DNA from: Chloroflexota bacterium
Lineage (GTDB): Bacteria; Chloroflexota; Limnocylindria; Limnocylindrales; CSP1-4
Assembly: GCA_003156975.1 (NCBI GenBank)
Contig: PMIE01000082.1
Location: 1-40,726, forward strand
DNA length: 40,726 nt
Reading direction: 5' to 3'
In this document: positions 31,394-38,540 of the stretch, piece after piece
How the letters are laid out: each line of letters starts with the position of its first letter
How positions within the stretch are numbered: position 1 is the stretch's first letter
Notes under the pieces: model-generated
Database searches by the model: none
Told to the model about the DNA's origin: nothing
What the model saw: the letters and a program-made list of their open reading frames with translations, nothing else
Program-made: the position numbers and the translations under genes

Positions 31394-31655
31394 ACGCTCC
31401 GAGGACGCTCGCCACCACTACTCGCCACCACTCGCCGATGCGCGCGCTAATGCTCGCGCGAGGCTCCCTTCACGCCGGCACGGTGTCGCGCAGGGCGGCT
31501 CTACGCAATTCGTCGGCGTTGACCAGTCGCGGGGCTGCGATGTACGGTCTTTGTCTGCTCTCTGGTGCAGTCGCGCCTCGGAGGGACGTCAACCGTGAGC
31601 CATGGGTCCCAGTTGCCAGGGTGCCCACTCACGTAATGCTCGACGGAGGAGTCGC
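31394..31655. other. Divergent intergenic region between Rrf2 and subtilase genes
   Basis: The gene-free gap from 31269 to 31655 holds the Rrf2 leader, its promoter and operator, and the subtilase promoter. The part from 31394 to 31500 shows no tRNA, repeat or conserved motif that I can identify, only GC-rich short palindromes such as CTCGCGCGAG. Confidence 0.6.
31519..31548 (+). promoter_or_regulatory. Possible promoter of the subtilase gene
   Basis: TTGACC at 31519-31524 is followed after 18 bases by TACGGT at 31543-31548, with five of six and three of six consensus matches. It would give a leader of about 100 bases. Confidence 0.4.
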
Positions 31656-34600
31656 ATGAGACGTCGTGTCTTCGTTTCGCTCTCGGTTCTCGCACTCGTG
31701 TTCGGGGCGGCGATCCCCACCACGGCCGCTGCGGCCAGCCCGGTCCACCGCTTCCAGAAGATCCACGTGACCGGCGTTGACCCGCAGGTCCTGCCCTACA
31801 TGATCGACAAGAACCGCCAGCTCAATCTAATGGTCGAGCTTTCCGACCAGCCGGTAGCAGCTCAGGTCGGCAACGCCACGGACAACGGCACGACCGCCAC
31901 CGCGTCCGATCGGTCCGCCTGGCGTTCCAAGATCAAGACCAGCCAGGCCCCCATCGTCGCCGCCGTCAAGGCGCATGGCGGAAGAGTCATGAGCCAGGTC
32001 CAGGATGCCTACAACGGTGTCCACGTCCATCTGGCGGCCGGTTCCGTCGCGGCTATTGCTGCGCTACCGGGTGTCGTGGCCGTTCACCTCGTGACCACGT
32101 ACAAGCCGATGCTCACCAAGAGCGTTCCCTATGTGGGAGCGCCACAGGCGTGGAGCGCAACCGGCGAGACCGGCGCCGGGGAGAAGATCGCGGTCATCGA
32201 TACGGGAATTGACTTCTACCACGCCGACTTCGGCGGCTCCGGAAACCCGGCCGACTACACGTACGGCCTTGCGCACGACACCGCCGTCCCGGCCAAGAAC
32301 GCCGACGGCACGACAGTAGCCTTCCCCAACGCCAAGATCCCCGTCGGATATGACTTCGTGGGCGATGCCTACGACGCCAGCGCCACGGCCGGGTCGCCCG
32401 CCACCATTCCGCAGCCCGACGGAAACCCCCTCGACTGCGACAGCCACGGCACTCACACCGCCAGCACGGCTGCAGGCTTCGGCGAGCTTGCCAACGGGTC
32501 CACCTACCACGGGCCGTATACGCCGGCCGTCTACGGCACCAAGGACTTCAAGATCGGCCCCGGCGTTGCCCCCAATGCCCAGCTCTACATCTACAAGGTG
32601 TTCGGCTGCCTCGGGACCACAGACGTGGTGACCGAAGCGATCAACAAGGCCGTCCAGGACGGCGCCGACGTCATCAGCATGTCGCTCGGGTCGGACTTCG
32701 GCACCTCCGATACTCCGGATGCCGCTGCCGCCGAGAACGCTTCTCGTGCCGGCGTCGTCGTCGTTGCCGCCAGCGGCAACGAAGGCTCCAGCGCCTACAT
32801 GGCCGGAACTCCGGCCAGCAGCTCCCGGACGATCTCCGTCGCGGCGTTGGACTCCAACGCCACCTTCCCCGGAGCGACGATCCAGCTCAGCCCGAAGATC
32901 TCCGCGCTCGATGCCAACAACGGCCCGCTGCCGGTCACCGGCAAGCTGGTCGTCCTGACTTCCGGCGGAGCCATCGGACTCGGTTGCGACGCTTCCGATT
33001 ACTCCGGCGTCCACACCGGCGACATCGTGGTCACGACTCGAGGCGTTTGCGCCCGCGTCCTCCGAGCCCAGCTCGGTCAGGCGGCCCATGCTTCGGCCGT
33101 GATCATGGTCAACAACGGCGACGGTCTGCCGCCGTTCGAAGGCCCGATTGCCGGGGTGACCATCCCGTTCATCGGCGTCTCCGAGTCCGACGGGGCGGCT
33201 CTCCTCGCTGCCGACGGAACCCCGAACGTGACCATCGTCGCGGCCGGCATGCTGACCAACCCCACCTACAAGCAGCTCGCGGACTTCACGTCTTATGGGC
33301 CGCGCTTCGGCGACAGCGCCCTTAAGCCCGAGGTTACCGCCCCGGGCGTGAGCATCGTGGCCGCCGGCATGGGTACGGGTAGCGACGTCCTCGTCGACTC
33401 GGGCACCTCCATGGCCACACCGCACATCGCCGGAGTTGCCGCCCTCGTTCTCGCCGCCAATCCGCATTGGTCCGTGAATGAGGTCAAGGCCGCGATCATG
33501 AGCACGGCCTCCGATACCTCGGCCACGATCGTCGGCTACGACCCAATCGGTGCCGGCTCGGGCGTGGTGCAAGCTCAGCAAGCCACCACTACCCAGGCGA
33601 TTGCTCTGACGAGCGACCACCTCGATAGCCTCGCGTTCGGCTATCGGCCGCTCGGCGGCTCATTCTCGGCCGTGAAGAGCTTCATCATCGAGAACAAGGG
33701 CTTCAAGTCCATCACCTACAACCTCGCCGCGAGTTTCGTCGGTGGTTCGGCTGGGGCAAAGGTCAAGGTCTCGCCCTCCAGGCTTTCAGTGCCGGCGCAC
33801 CAGTCGCGCAGCGTCGCGGTGACGCTGTCGATGTCCGCCGCGGCGGTCGCGGCCCTGCCGGCGGCCGACACGTTCGCCGGGGTCGGCCCGGGCGCCCTGC
33901 TGAGCGTTGAGGGCGTGGTCACGGCCAAGCCCACGGCCTCCGGCGCGGGCATCTACTCGCTCCACGTTCCGTTCCTGCTGGTCCCGCGCGGCGATTCGAA
34001 GGTCGTCGCCGGCCCGCCCTCGCCCTACCAGCTGACCGCTGACGTGGCCAGCGCCACCGTGCCTCTCAAGAACGTAGGCCTGCACAGCGGCACGGCCGAT
34101 GTCTACTCGTGGGGCATCTCCGACAAGGACCACACGACGGGCATCGCCAGTATCCGAGCCGTCGGCGTGCAGTCGCTGCCGGCTAGTACCTGCGGCGCGG
34201 CCACGGGTGACGCCTGCCTCGTCTTCGCGATCAACGGCTGGCACCAGTGGTCCAACGCAGCGGCAGCCGAATACGACATCGGCATCGACACCAACAACGA
34301 TGGGTCCGCCGACTTCATCGTCGTGGGCCTCGACCTCGGTGAGATCACTACCGGCTCCTTCAACGGCGTCGAGGCCTCGTTCGAGTTCGATGCCGGGGGC
34401 AATCTGATCGCGGCGTACTACGCGGATGCGCCGATGAACGGCTCGGTCATCGAGCTGCCGGCCATCGCCAGCGAGATCGGCGTCACCGCCGGCTCGCCGA
34501 CCTTCACCTACTCGATCACCGGCGTGGACCTCATCACCGGCACCGTCGATGCGGTTGCGGGAACGGCGAAGTACAACGCCTTCACCCCGACTGCCTCGAA

Positions 34601-34772
34601 CGGCCAGTTCGTGTCGCTCGCATCGGGCGCCTCGGCGACTTTGCCGATCAGCGTCACCGCGAGCCTGCAGGCGACAACTCCGGCACTCGGCTGGATGGTC
34701 GTCAGCCTCGACAACGCCAACGGAGCCGCTCAGGCGGCCCTGATCCCCGTCGGGAAGATCCCCGCGCACTGA
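31656..34772 (+). CDS. Secreted S8 subtilisin-like serine protease with PA domain
   Basis: About 1038 residues from the ATG at 31656, which has GGAGGA five bases upstream. A Sec signal peptide runs from MRRRVFVSLSVLALVFG to an Ala-rich cleavage area near residue 27. Residues about 35-150 look like an I9-type propeptide. The catalytic triad is Asp182 in AVIDTGID, His264 in SHGTHTAS and Ser585 in SGTSMATPH. Between His and Ser lies a PA domain (about 430-540, TTRGVCARVLRAQLG and IPFIGVSESDGAAL), as in Vpr and lactocepin proteases. The 400-residue C-terminal part is beta-rich, resembling Fn3-like domains. No sortase motif or membrane anchor is seen, so the enzyme is probably released and degrades extracellular protein. 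Confidence 0.93.
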   Translation: MRRRVFVSLSVLALVFGAAIPTTAAAASPVHRFQKIHVTGVDPQVLPYMIDKNRQLNLMVELSDQPVAAQVGNATDNGTTATASDRSAWRSKIKTSQAPIVAAVKAHGGRVMSQVQDAYNGVHVHLAAGSVAAIAALPGVVAVHLVTTYKPMLTKSVPYVGAPQAWSATGETGAGEKIAVIDTGIDFYHADFGGSGNPADYTYGLAHDTAVPAKNADGTTVAFPNAKIPVGYDFVGDAYDASATAGSPATIPQPDGNPLDCDSHGTHTASTAAGFGELANGSTYHGPYTPAVYGTKDFKIGPGVAPNAQLYIYKVFGCLGTTDVVTEAINKAVQDGADVISMSLGSDFGTSDTPDAAAAENASRAGVVVVAASGNEGSSAYMAGTPASSSRTISVAALDSNATFPGATIQLSPKISALDANNGPLPVTGKLVVLTSGGAIGLGCDASDYSGVHTGDIVVTTRGVCARVLRAQLGQAAHASAVIMVNNGDGLPPFEGPIAGVTIPFIGVSESDGAALLAADGTPNVTIVAAGMLTNPTYKQLADFTSYGPRFGDSALKPEVTAPGVSIVAAGMGTGSDVLVDSGTSMATPHIAGVAALVLAANPHWSVNEVKAAIMSTASDTSATIVGYDPIGAGSGVVQAQQATTTQAIALTSDHLDSLAFGYRPLGGSFSAVKSFIIENKGFKSITYNLAASFVGGSAGAKVKVSPSRLSVPAHQSRSVAVTLSMSAAAVAALPAADTFAGVGPGALLSVEGVVTAKPTASGAGIYSLHVPFLLVPRGDSKVVAGPPSPYQLTADVASATVPLKNVGLHSGTADVYSWGISDKDHTTGIASIRAVGVQSLPASTCGAATGDACLVFAINGWHQWSNAAAAEYDIGIDTNNDGSADFIVVGLDLGEITTGSFNGVEASFEFDAGGNLIAAYYADAPMNGSVIELPAIASEIGVTAGSPTFTYSITGVDLITGTVDAVAGTAKYNAFTPTASNGQFVSLASGASATLPISVTASLQATTPALGWMVVSLDNANGAAQAALIPVGKIPAH

Positions 34773-34792: not shown

Positions 34793-34822
34793 GTGGCCCG
34801 CCCGGTTCTCCGGGCGGGCCAC
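34793..34822 (+). terminator. Strong hairpin terminator after the subtilase
   Basis: GTGGCCCGCCCGG (34793-34805) and CCGGGCGGGCCAC (34810-34822) pair perfectly over 13 bp around TTCT, and TTCTTGT follows. It begins 20 bases after the subtilase stop. The stem is strong and the U-tract short. Confidence 0.75.
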
Positions 34823-35009
34823 TTCTTGTACGCCCTGACTCGCGACGCAGACCGAACCCCGGGCGCTCTGCGACGGTCATATCTATGGTGAGAGCATCGC
34901 GTGAAGAGACCCATCAACCCGGCGTTGGAGTGGCGCACTACTCCCGACTACGAGCCGCGGAACGATTACCATGGGCAGGCATTACGAGGCAGCGTTCGGA
35001 GAGGCTAGC

Positions 35010-35237
35010 GTGTCGTACGACGTCATCGGCAAGATGGGGCGCGTAACCGCAGACATCACCCCGGGGCATCTCGGCGAGGTGCTTATCGAGGTCCGCCAGG
35101 GGACCGAGCGATTCCTGGCATCCTCCGCGGATCCGGAGGCGACGATCAAGAAGAACGCCCAGGTTCTGGTGGTCGGTAGCCTGGGGGGACGGACGGTTGA
35201 GGTGGCACCGACCGATACAGTGAGGCTCCCGAGATGA
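35010..35237 (+). CDS. Short NfeD-like OB-fold protein
   Basis: About 75 residues from GTG 35010, chosen because GGAGAGG lies five bases upstream; an ATG at 34971 is in frame but poorly preceded. The sequence GKMGRVTADITPGHLGEVLIEV, then KKNAQVLVVGSLGGRTVEV, follows the strand pattern of the NfeD C-terminal OB domain (Gly-x-x-Gly near the start, closing strands with V-x-V-V). The membrane helices and protease part of long NfeD proteins are absent. NfeD proteins are usually encoded next to SPFH proteins, and this stop overlaps the flotillin start by four bases (ATGA). It probably binds or regulates that partner. Confidence 0.72.
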   Translation: MSYDVIGKMGRVTADITPGHLGEVLIEVRQGTERFLASSADPEATIKKNAQVLVVGSLGGRTVEVAPTDTVRLPR

Positions 35238-36784
35238 CAACAGAACAGATCACGCTGGCGGTAATAGCTGGGGCGATCGTCCTCGTCTTGCTGGTCTTGA
35301 TCATCCTGATCAAGTCCACGCTGCGGATTGCCGAGCCGGATGAGGCCCTGATCATCTCCGGAATTTCGCGCGGTCATTCGGCGGGCCAGGTCGCCGGCGA
35401 GAGCATGCGCTTCAAGATCGTGACGGGCGGCGCCACGATGGTGATGCCGGGCCTGTCCAAGGTTCGAGCCCTCTCGCTCATGGCCCACGAGAGCGAGATC
35501 TCCGTGCCGTGCGTGAGCCAGCAGAAGATTCGTCTGGACCTTCGCGGCGTCATCGTCTACAAGGTCGGCGACGACTATCGCTCCATCGCCAACGCCGCCC
35601 GCCGCTTCCTGGACCGCCCGGCCGTAGAGCTCGAGTCCAAGGTCCAAAACGTCTTCGTCGGCCACCTTCGCGCCATCGCCGGCTCGATGACCGTCGAGGA
35701 GATGATCAGCGACCAGGACAAGTTCGCCCAGCAGGTCCGCGACCGCTGCACCCTCGAGATGGAATCCTTCGGCCTGGTCATCGACAGCTTCCAGATCCAG
35801 TCGATCACCAGCCCGTCCAACTACATCGAGAACCTGGCCGTTCCGCATCAGGCGGAAGTCGAGCAGAACGCCCGCATCGCCCGCGCTCAAGCGGACCAGA
35901 CCGCCGTCGCGCAAGAGCAGACGGCTCAGGCCCAGATCGCCGAGTCGATCCGGGGCACCGAAATCAAGAAGGCCGGCTTCCAGGCAGAAATCGATCGGGC
36001 CCAGAGACAAGCCGGGCAGCAGGGACCTCTCGCCGAGGCTCAGGCTCGCCAGGCGGTCGTCGAGCAGGAAACGCGCGTCGCCGAGCTGCAGGCCCAGCAG
36101 AAGGAACAGCAGCTCCAGGTAGACGTCCGCAAGCCCGCCGACGCCGAGGCCTATCGACAGACCACACTCGCCGCGGCCGGTCGCGACGTCCGAATTCGCC
36201 AGGCTGAAGCTGCCGCTCAGGAAGTCCGCCTGGCGGCCGAAGCTCAAGCGGCGGCGGTCAAGGTCCAGGCCGAGGCTCAGGCCAACGCGACTCGCATCAA
36301 CGGCCAGGCCGACGGCGACGCCATCAAGGCTCGCGGTCTTGCCGAGGCGGACGCGATCAAGGCCAAGGCGATGGCCGAGGCGGCCGGCATCGAAAGCCGC
36401 GCGGCAGCCCTCAGCCAGAACCAGGAAGCGGTCATCGCCCAGCAGATCGCCGTCTCCATGCCGGACATCGTCCGAGCGGCGGCCTCTCCGTTCGAGCACG
36501 TCGGGCAGTTCACCGTCCTCAACGGCGCCCAGGGCGTCACGAGCGCTCTCGGCGACGTCATCCAGCAGGCCGGTGCGCTCGTCGGCATCGCCCGCCGGAC
36601 CATCACTCCGCTGCTCGCGCCGGACGAGAAGAACGGCTCCGGAAACGGGACCGCTGCGAAGCCCGCGCCGGTCGCCCCGGCACCGGCGGCGCGCCGCGCA
36701 GCACGACCGGCGGATGCGCCCAAGGCGCCCGACGCGGCGAAGTCCGCGGACGCGCCTGTCGCGCCCGACGCCCCGCAGGGGTAG
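35234..36784 (+). CDS. Flotillin-like SPFH-domain membrane scaffold
   Basis: A 516-residue flotillin-like protein. One N-terminal membrane helix (ITLAVIAGAIVLVLLVLIILI) anchors it. The SPFH/band-7 domain covers about 30-210 and includes EALIISGISRG, GGATMVMPGLSKV and LDLRGVIVYKVGDD. From about 215 to 400 a long Ala/Glu/Gln/Arg-rich coiled coil shows repeated AEAQA and ARAQAD heptads, the oligomerisation region of flotillins. The C terminus is a Pro/Ala-rich disordered tail with repeated APDA/ADAP units. Flotillins organise membrane domains. It is coupled to the NfeD-like gene and followed by the TelA-family gene. Confidence 0.92.
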   Translation: MTTEQITLAVIAGAIVLVLLVLIILIKSTLRIAEPDEALIISGISRGHSAGQVAGESMRFKIVTGGATMVMPGLSKVRALSLMAHESEISVPCVSQQKIRLDLRGVIVYKVGDDYRSIANAARRFLDRPAVELESKVQNVFVGHLRAIAGSMTVEEMISDQDKFAQQVRDRCTLEMESFGLVIDSFQIQSITSPSNYIENLAVPHQAEVEQNARIARAQADQTAVAQEQTAQAQIAESIRGTEIKKAGFQAEIDRAQRQAGQQGPLAEAQARQAVVEQETRVAELQAQQKEQQLQVDVRKPADAEAYRQTTLAAAGRDVRIRQAEAAAQEVRLAAEAQAAAVKVQAEAQANATRINGQADGDAIKARGLAEADAIKAKAMAEAAGIESRAAALSQNQEAVIAQQIAVSMPDIVRAAASPFEHVGQFTVLNGAQGVTSALGDVIQQAGALVGIARRTITPLLAPDEKNGSGNGTAAKPAPVAPAPAARRAARPADAPKAPDAAKSADAPVAPDAPQG

Positions 36785-36799
36785 ACGCTCGTTGGTTCA

Positions 36800-37888
36800 A
36801 TGAGCAAACCGAGCAAGTCATTCAACCCGGCGGAGCCCGCAACGGCTTCGCCGGGCTCTGTTTTGGCCACGCCTCCAAACCTCGAGATCGAGCCCGAATC
36901 GGTGGCGGGGATTGAGCGCATGGCGACGGAGTATGTCGACGCCTTTCTAGTGGCAGAGCCGTCCGACCCCGAGTCGGCACGTACGATTGCCGCGATCGAC
37001 CGACTCGGCGAGCGTGACTTCGTAGTCACCGCGGCGATCAGCGGGCGGCTGCTGGATCGTCGTTTTCGCGCCGTGGACGCGGTGCTCGGAAGCAAGGCCC
37101 CGATTGCGCGGCAGCTCGCCGAGTTGCGCAAGCTCGCGGCCCGAATAGACCCGTCGAAGCTGAGCCTGGACGGCGGCCGCTCCCCCGAGGAAGACATCCG
37201 CGATCTCGATCGCTACTTCGAGCGCTTCGCCAGGTTGCAGCCGGCCCTGCAGGAGATCCTCAGCCGGCTCGCTGAAGGCCGCCTCTTCCTGGAGCAGGAC
37301 AACGCCGCGATCGTCCAGGAACAGGCGTCGTTGGAGATCGAGCTGGAGACGTTGCGCCAGTACGCCTACCTCGCCGAACGGATCGATCGACTGGCTAGCG
37401 CTCGCATCGATGCCATGGCTGCGACCGAGCCTGCCCGCGCCCAATCGTTGATGACGAGCTTTCTCAGTGTCGTGCGCCGGCGGCGCCAGGAGATCCTGGT
37501 GCAGCTGGCGGTCGTGACCCAGGGTTTCGCGGCCCTGCAGGTCGTCGAGGAGAGCAACGCCGAAGTGGTGCACGCCCTTGCCACGGCGATCACGACCACC
37601 ACGACCGCGATGCGAACGGCCGTTATGGCGGCGCATGCGGCGGCGAGCCAGCGGATTGCCCTGGGCCAGCTCCACGCAGCGCAGAAGGCCACCAGCGCAA
37701 TGGCCAACCACGTCGCTGCGCTGGAAGACGGCTCGTCCGGCCCGAGCGGGCGAGTTGCCGTGCTCCGCGACGCCTGGAGCGAGGTCTACGCCGCCCTGGA
37801 TCGCGTGGACCAGCAGAAGGCCCAGGTCCTGCGAACCATCTCACGGGCCGACCGCGAGCTGACCAGGCTGAAGCCGGGGAGTCCGTAG
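36800..37888 (+). CDS. TelA/KlaA-family toxic-anion-resistance-like protein
   Basis: A 362-residue protein resembling TelA (tellurite/toxic anion resistance). The diagnostic stretch EILVQLAVVTQGFAALQVVEESNAE is visible in its core as QLAVVTQGFAALQVV, followed by long helices (TTTTTAMRTAVMAAHAAASQRIALGQL), as in TelA, where T-x-x-A-L-R-x-A-V occurs. Upstream helices with ARIDPSKL and FERFARLQPALQEIL match the rest of the family. TelA proteins are cytoplasmic and alpha-helical, of uncertain mechanism, and often sit with stress genes. The N-terminal 40 residues are low complexity, and a terminator-like hairpin lies within them, so the real start may be later (for example ATG 36923). It follows the flotillin gene by 15 bases. 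Confidence 0.85.
   Translation: MSKPSKSFNPAEPATASPGSVLATPPNLEIEPESVAGIERMATEYVDAFLVAEPSDPESARTIAAIDRLGERDFVVTAAISGRLLDRRFRAVDAVLGSKAPIARQLAELRKLAARIDPSKLSLDGGRSPEEDIRDLDRYFERFARLQPALQEILSRLAEGRLFLEQDNAAIVQEQASLEIELETLRQYAYLAERIDRLASARIDAMAATEPARAQSLMTSFLSVVRRRRQEILVQLAVVTQGFAALQVVEESNAEVVHALATAITTTTTAMRTAVMAAHAAASQRIALGQLHAAQKATSAMANHVAALEDGSSGPSGRVAVLRDAWSEVYAALDRVDQQKAQVLRTISRADRELTRLKPGSP
36831..36864 (+). terminator. Terminator-like hairpin inside the TelA gene 5' end
   Basis: CGGAGCCCG (36831-36839) pairs with CGGGCTCTG (36852-36860; one G-U), with a 12-base loop and TTTT directly after. It lies 47 bases beyond the flotillin stop, where an intrinsic terminator is expected, but inside the annotated start of the next gene. 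Confidence 0.5.
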
Positions 37889-37937: not shown

Positions 37938-38540
37938 ATGAGCGAATCGTCGGAGATCGACAAACCGGGCCTACGCGAGCGCAAGAAGGCCAAGACGCGG
38001 GCACTCATCCAGGAACATGCAATGCGCCTCTTCGGTGAGCAGGGTTACGGGGCCACGACCGTCGAGCAGATCGCCGATGCGGCAGAGGTCTCGCCGAGTA
38101 CGTTCTTCCGCTATTTCGGGTCGAAGGAAGAGGTCGTCGCGTATGACGCCTTGGACCCGCTGATCCTCCAAGCGTGGCGAGCACAGCCGGCCGGACTGAC
38201 CCCGCTGGCGGCCATGCGCGATGCCATGAAAGTGGTCTTCGGCAACATTGCGCCTGAGGCCCGAGCCGAGATGGTCAGCCGGGGCAAGCTGCTGTATTCG
38301 GAGCCGGATCTGCGTTCCGCGGCGATCGGTGAGCTGATCAGATCAGCCCAGATGATGATGGACGAGATAGCTGCGCGAACCGGCAGGCCGGCGGACGATC
38401 TCGAGGTTCGGGTCTTCGCCGGCGCGCTGGTCGGTGCCTTCATCGCTGCGGTTGTGCCAGTTCTCGAGGATCCCAAGGCGGACTTCTTCGAACTGGCAGA
38501 CAAGGCCATCGACTTTCTCGACAAGGGCATGCCGCTCTAG
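37938..38540 (+). CDS. TetR-family transcriptional regulator
   Basis: A 200-residue TetR repressor. Residues 15-61 are the helix-turn-helix, from ERKKAKTRALIQEHAMRLF through ATTVEQIADAAEVSPSTFFRYFGSKEEVV, a close match to the family. The C-terminal ligand-binding half is helical and has no identifiable specificity motif; the NIAPEARAEMVSRGKLLYSEPDLR element resembles acyl-CoA or MftR-type TetR regulators. It is 49 bases after the TelA-family gene and 74 bases before the GGDEF gene, all plus strand, so its targets may be these neighbours, although co-orientation leaves this open. Confidence 0.93.
   Translation: MSESSEIDKPGLRERKKAKTRALIQEHAMRLFGEQGYGATTVEQIADAAEVSPSTFFRYFGSKEEVVAYDALDPLILQAWRAQPAGLTPLAAMRDAMKVVFGNIAPEARAEMVSRGKLLYSEPDLRSAAIGELIRSAQMMMDEIAARTGRPADDLEVRVFAGALVGAFIAAVVPVLEDPKADFFELADKAIDFLDKGMPL

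Follow-up and report, generated by a model that had tools for sequence, protein, structure and literature searches.

The closest described relatives of the genes analysed here are operons of Bacillus subtilis and a protein complex of Staphylococcus aureus. We describe a trio of adjacent genes, encoding an NfeD-like OB-domain protein, a flotillin, and a TelA-family protein, in a stretch of 40,726 nucleotides (nt) from a Chloroflexota bacterium (GenBank assembly GCA_003156975.1, contig PMIE01000082.1); we call the whole stretch the window. It is contig C82; the draft genome measures 2.78 Mb and is 84.7% complete. The closest named relative is locus L055 ('Chloroflexi bacterium isolate fen_1019'), whose TelA is 73% identical to that of the window. 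An earlier note, made from the letters of this DNA, had proposed that the trio forms a membrane-domain unit with a cytoplasmic helical effector.

The B. subtilis operon yuaF-floT-yuaI (NfeD2-SPFH2) is like the trio in that an NfeD-type gene stands in a flotillin operon. It differs in two respects: the hydrophobic stretches known from NfeD proteins are present in YuaF, whereas the trio partner is an OB domain only, and yuaI encodes an acetyltransferase, whereas the third gene of the trio encodes a TelA (PMC2636767). The same survey of SPFH proteins, from 2009, reports three hydrophobic stretches in most NfeD homologues, and 'TelA' does not occur in it (PMC2636767). In S. aureus, the OB domain of NfeD binds the coiled coil of the flotillin FloA, a combination that the trio shares, and contacts between OB domains are proposed to join dimers; S. 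aureus NfeD also has a lipid-recognizing membrane region, and TelA is not part of the complex as described there (PMC11222466). The TelA family itself is represented in B. subtilis by the xpaC-yaaN and yceCDEFGH operons, YaaN being so named in PMC12791056. Unlike the trio, both operons are without a flotillin. We take YceH to be the TelA-family member of the latter. The sigma-W regulon lists yuaF-floT together with xpaC-yaaN and yceCDEFGH (PMC3498285), and a Listeria telA mutant tolerates nisin and tellurite less well, as PMC12791056 relates. A likeness of design, for which we claim no homology, is offered by the B. subtilis operon pspA-ydjGHI: it combines an SPFH protein with a soluble stress protein, and the membrane placement of PspA needs the SPFH protein YdjI, but the SPFH protein is a different one, the soluble partner is PspA and not TelA, and an internal terminator lies between the genes (PMC8581546). 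The open literature yielded no link between a flotillin or SPFH protein and TelA beyond passing co-mention; the subscription literature, which lay outside the search, may hold one.

The trio is a real and conserved unit. We surveyed 107 genomes of the family and a 201-genome sample of the phylum Chloroflexota. A search with the window TelA found TelA in 29 of the family genomes; the flotillin-linked kind is present in 25, and the other four (G212, G213, G216, and G220) have canonical TelA only. With the window flotillin as query, 26 long matches of at least 70% identity came up in the 107 genomes, all in the same 25, and a TelA gene adjoins each. The trio also occurs in two genomes of another family from the phylum sample (G054 and G159), bringing flotillin-TelA adjacency to 28 loci in 27 genomes and two families. 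An NfeD gene lies on the same contig at 24 of these loci. At the remaining four the contig ends within the flotillin. Each of these genomes has the flotillin start on a second contig, where three show NfeD before it and one shows an NfeD match of 17 residues. Adjacency of flotillin and TelA at 28 loci, with NfeD at 24, is therefore more than chance. The earlier note had named co-occurrence in relatives beforehand as its test, and the order of the three genes proved constant across genera and in the second family, while the flanking genes mostly change between genera. One genome, G234, has two trios (L071 and L076), and the closeness of the second to another genus (g148) suggests transfer or a mixed bin.

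This arrangement is specific to one kind of flotillin and one kind of TelA. TelA is absent from the fetched flanks of all 40 other Chloroflexota flotillin loci, a control set chosen from the family and phylum search lists, and flotillin is absent from the wide flanks of all 12 canonical TelA loci. No flotillin lies near the plasmid TelAs in three of six matching records (L130-L132); the three Curtobacterium records are not among these. At six of the 12 canonical loci (L087-L092) a related protein of 181-274 amino acids (aa) directly follows telA; Pfam finds no family for four scanned members of its cluster (c1), two of which belong to those six loci.

The identity of the first gene product called for several lines of comparison. 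The Pfam NfeD model (PF01957) scores the window protein at E 0.024 and 15.3 bits, below the curated cut-off of 29.1, and matches 13 of 20 members of the alignment at E up to 1, the lowest E being 0.0028; with a score below the cut-off, the name NfeD needed further proof. We built a reference set of 16 Chloroflexota OB domains that exceed the Pfam NfeD cut-off and compared profiles with hhalign, which returned a probability of 89.8% and E 1.8e-6 (a single comparison), at 34% identity over 56 columns. The best PDB match of the 20-sequence profile is YuaF (2k14; E 0.021, marginal taken alone). Mean column identity in this alignment is 87%; its 20 rows exclude L062, L069, L075, L076, and the four loci whose contig lacks NfeD. 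Hydropathy finds no membrane segment anywhere in the 75-aa protein, and since an N-terminal segment is missing we class it as an OB-only relative and not as a typical NfeD. Together, these comparisons support the protein as an NfeD homologue without the typical membrane part, in agreement with the minimal OB-only NfeD that the earlier note had seen. The gene begins with GTG, with CGGAGAGG ahead of it, and CGGAGA stands 5' of it in all 15 genus-type loci that have the gene on the contig. A longer open reading frame starting at 34971 was rejected, because homology sets in only at 35010 and L061, L064, and L079 have the frame closed ahead of that point.

The two larger proteins carry the family assignments that had been given to them. 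The flotillin matches Band_7 (PF01145, E 1e-25) and Flot (PF15975, E 4e-9), both over cut-off, and its best PDB matches are chains of Flotillin-1 and Flotillin-2 (E 1e-24 to 8e-21); the NCBIfam equivalog model of B. subtilis FloT (NF058507) reaches 232.9 bits, below its cut-off of 700. In the draft of the nearest relative the flotillin is broken across two frames (L055/L056 near 3825). This split puts telA and part of the flotillin into one open frame, and the apparent flotillin-TelA fusion of L056 was rejected for that reason. The window TelA matches PF05816 at E 2.2e-32 and 112.9 bits against a cut-off of 30, along model positions 14-323 of 332. All 25 members of the trio TelA alignment (25 rows, without L062, L081, and L082) also match this family. 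A cytoplasmic, helical effector had been proposed; the lack of hydrophobic membrane segments by hydropathy and an AlphaFold2 (AF2) prediction agree with the structural part of that claim, and its functional part draws on analogy. A PDB sequence search with TelA gave no relative at E up to 1, and a profile search gave only coiled-coil chance matches (best E 0.1). Fold matches of the TelA model to alpha-helical pore proteins and designed bundles, with E 0.035 at best and low template modelling scores, were not used.

Phylogeny adds two points that the earlier note had missed. Judged by its tree, the trio TelA is a divergent subfamily apart from canonical TelA: a branch with support 100/100 has 26 trio TelAs on one side and the 12 canonical TelAs on the other, and the plasmid TelAs of Nonomuraea, Arthrobacter, and Sphaerotilus group with the latter. 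The separation is thus from 12 canonical Chloroflexota and three plasmid TelAs, in a tree without YaaN and YceH; L081 and L082 are likewise not in it, L062 is trimmed to 400 residues, and the TelA of L080 sits on a long branch. The flotillin tree, made from 70 rows by a quick method, groups L134 with all 28 trio members at a Shimodaira-Hasegawa-like approximate likelihood ratio test (SH-aLRT) support of 100. A larger group (99) adds L135 and L136, from another Chloroflexota family, and the flotillins of an Arthrobacter and a Streptomyces plasmid, the plasmid placements being unsure on account of long branches. Each of these four outer flotillins has alongside it a frame that matches the trio OB profile (E 6e-20, 5e-20, 1e-9, and 3e-5); hydropathy finds no membrane segments in these frames, and the Pfam NfeD model gives E 0.031 for one and no match for the other three. 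The two plasmid flotillins (L129 and L133) are those examined among 28 matching records; each stands beside an OB-only protein, and neither locus has a TelA. The frames concerned are L129:7358-7633 and L133:4681-4977; the one on the Streptomyces plasmid is annotated as a hypothetical protein, and on the Arthrobacter plasmid the order is reversed, with the flotillin first.

The second point is that a membrane-free NfeD appears to mark a wider flotillin clade, with two Actinomycetota plasmids in it if their unsure placements hold. Among the 40 control loci, an OB-profile match adjoins the flotillin in 12; apart from L135 and L136, the six inspected (L139, L147, L151, L152, L168, and L170) each have at least two hydrophobic segments, with L138, L142, L162, and L165 outside the inspection. 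The OB profile is narrow, so the other control flotillins may have an NfeD neighbour as well. We read the trees as a membrane-free NfeD that arose first in the flotillin clade and a TelA that joined once inside it, with L134 now without either.

The three genes are laid out as a compact operon (Table 1). The ATGA overlap that couples NfeD to flotillin (35234-35237) is exactly as the earlier note gave it and is kept in 22 of 24 loci; the 15-base gap before telA is equally exact. This gap measures 7-28 nt in 18 of 19 genus-type loci, those with a readable flotillin stop, and telA overlaps the flotillin stop by 1 nt in L076 and by 4 nt in L079; L056 and L077, with broken flotillin frames, and L080-L082, with an unsure telA start, are omitted from these counts. 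Between 34700 and 38700, where chance alone would give 0.3 sites, a simple sigma-70 scan detected nothing promoter-like, which is weak evidence in Chloroflexota. All three genes are under purifying selection: the ratio of nonsynonymous to synonymous substitution rates (dN/dS) is 0.03-0.14 for NfeD (seven pairs), 0.15-0.24 for flotillin (five pairs), and 0.10-0.27 for TelA (eight pairs). No pair reaches 0.3, though some dS values lie near 1 and are unreliable. Upstream of the trio lies a protease-like gene (31602-34772, subtilisin-like by eye only), and downstream a TetR-family regulator (37938-38540). A terminator-like hairpin of 13 pairs (34793-34822) stands 3' of the protease-like gene and would set the trio apart from upstream transcription.

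Table 1. Features of the trio, in window coordinates
Feature	Position	Strand	Basis
Shine-Dalgarno-like CGGAGAGG before the NfeD-like gene	34997..35004	+	sequence
NfeD-like OB-domain protein, 75 aa, without membrane segment	35010..35237	+	hhalign, YuaF match, alignment, hydropathy
Flotillin (SPFH), 516 aa, one N-terminal hydrophobic segment	35234..36784	+	Pfam, NCBIfam, PDB matches, hydropathy
Flotillin-telA junction, 15 nt, no clear Shine-Dalgarno	36785..36799	+	sequence
TelA-family protein (flotillin-linked subfamily), 362 aa, predicted helical, without membrane segment	36800..37888	+	PF05816, clade, AF2, hydropathy
Conserved RNA hairpin, predicted, telA codons 9-19, then CTCTGTTTTG	36826..36855	+	terminator-like scan, pair counts, fold z, covariance-model search

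In alignments of the window's genus, a predicted RNA hairpin at the start of telA is conserved and carries compensatory changes; the earlier note had not seen it. A stem lies at about codons 8-19 in all 19 genus-type loci, which fall into two sequence groups of 12 (group I) and seven loci (group II). In group I, 89.7% of cells are paired, and sliding the arms drops pairing to at most 55%. Double changes occur in four pairs, one of which (columns 29-63) is unpaired in seven of the 12 loci. The covariation score is reached by 0 of 500 shuffles and the number of doubly changed pairs by 6 of 500, in counts that kinship of the sequences inflates, as the tool warns. The fold z of the window hairpin is -3.77. 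A covariance model of the 12 group I sequences scores 56.9 bits at the window site and 20.4 at the next separate site of the genome; across 21 genomes of the genus its 12 best matches are its 12 source sites, followed by 27.8 bits. In L074-L082 it has no match with an E value of 1 or less; other stems are possible there, group II having also scored weakly. On these searches, which in its own genome scored 150 of 8618 first-look candidates, we rejected the view that the hairpin is a dispersed repeat, and a known Rfam family was rejected as well, the two matches being elsewhere and both far below the gathering score. A terminator-like scan had picked up the hairpin with the tail CTCTGTTTTG, in a region with 3 such sites against 1.6 (standard deviation 1.4) in shuffles; the T run is broken in group I relatives and absent in group II. 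Differences before and across the stem look coding by codon position in 10 of the 12 group I loci, so that telA probably starts 5' of it; the frame is open through the stem.

These last features, with the high content of guanine and cytosine (GC), would also fit a hairpin that is a by-product of GC-rich coding of a stretch rich in proline, alanine, and glycine, and further pair types are indeed not enriched, since 268 of 500 shuffles have at least as many. We consider such a by-product unlikely: double changes in L059 and L066 keep the pair yet alter the amino acids (codons read by eye), the window copy is by far the top site in its genome, and at the same position group II has a stem in which 10 or all of 11 pairs are made, around a loop of 7. 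Possible roles of the hairpin are a ribosome-dependent attenuator and an mRNA-processing stem.

What might the trio do? We give an even chance to a single envelope-stress unit, in which flotillin and OB protein would be a scaffold that recruits TelA to the membrane and the hairpin would tune the dose of TelA. The membrane-anchored flotillin would form an SPFH assembly with cytoplasmic coiled coils. The OB-only NfeD, amounting to just the flotillin-binding domain, would bind and cross-link these coils; it could keep the flotillin and OB-OB contacts while losing the lipid part. TelA, soluble and helical, would be the client or effector gathered at the membrane by the scaffold, protecting the envelope, and the stem-loop at the telA start would, in the window's genus, lower or condition TelA synthesis relative to the scaffold. 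We infer the membrane-domain, effector, and envelope-stress roles by analogy, and prefer recruitment because of the precedents of FloA-NfeD, YdjI-PspA, the sigma-W regulon, and Listeria telA. Several observations weigh against this unit. The trio is patchy, being present in 25 of the 107 family genomes and two further ones of the phylum sample, and a close flotillin paralogue (L134:1448-3040, 74%) has neither NfeD nor TelA nearby in a genome that also has a trio. Across loci, identity to the window in best segments is 31-73% for TelA and 70-95% for flotillin, so that a tight shared interface is not evident, and in close pairs the dN of TelA exceeds that of flotillin in two of four only. The structural models are modest for TelA and poor for the NfeD-like protein: the mean predicted local distance difference test score (pLDDT) is 70.3 for the all-helix single-sequence model of TelA, whose fold search gave no significant match (best E 0.035), and 42.8 for the two-sequence model of the NfeD-like protein. 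The hairpin, moreover, could mean partly separate expression of telA, which qualifies the picture of one operon.

Several of the same observations would suit a TelA that is merely a co-regulated stress gene, acting elsewhere in the cell while the OB protein and flotillin form their complex. The lower conservation of TelA compared with flotillin and NfeD, the hairpin at its start, and the lack of flotillin at all 12 canonical TelA loci fit, as does B. subtilis, where TelA-type operons and floT share the sigma-W regulon yet stand in separate operons (PMC3498285). We regard co-regulation as possible and short of an even chance: across two families a single clade of TelA goes with a single clade of flotillin, the start of telA runs into the flotillin stop in L076 and L079, and mere co-regulation would permit a swap with canonical TelA, of which none is seen in the 28 loci. 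A more doubtful reading gives the OB-only NfeD the leading part, as the mark of a distinct flotillin system of Chloroflexota and Actinomycetota that captured TelA once as a dedicated effector, with the dose of TelA set by a stem-loop in its first codons that ribosomes arriving from flotillin open. In that case TelA would serve a flotillin platform as its soluble, active part, much as PspA serves YdjI. TelA could also be a folding partner: the flotillin clamp would hold unfolded membrane proteins, and TelA, as a helical adaptor, would load or release them; S. aureus FloA-NfeD holds unfolded proteins (PMC11222466) and TelA is predicted as long helices, but the Pfam matches of TelA include no chaperone family and its fold has no significant match, and we rate this role improbable.

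TelA has been tied to tolerance of envelope drugs and tellurite, by a mechanism that PMC12791056 does not establish. The conserved link to flotillin turns the questions of where and with what TelA acts into a testable hypothesis, and the trio presents the flotillin partner NfeD in a minimal, membrane-free form.

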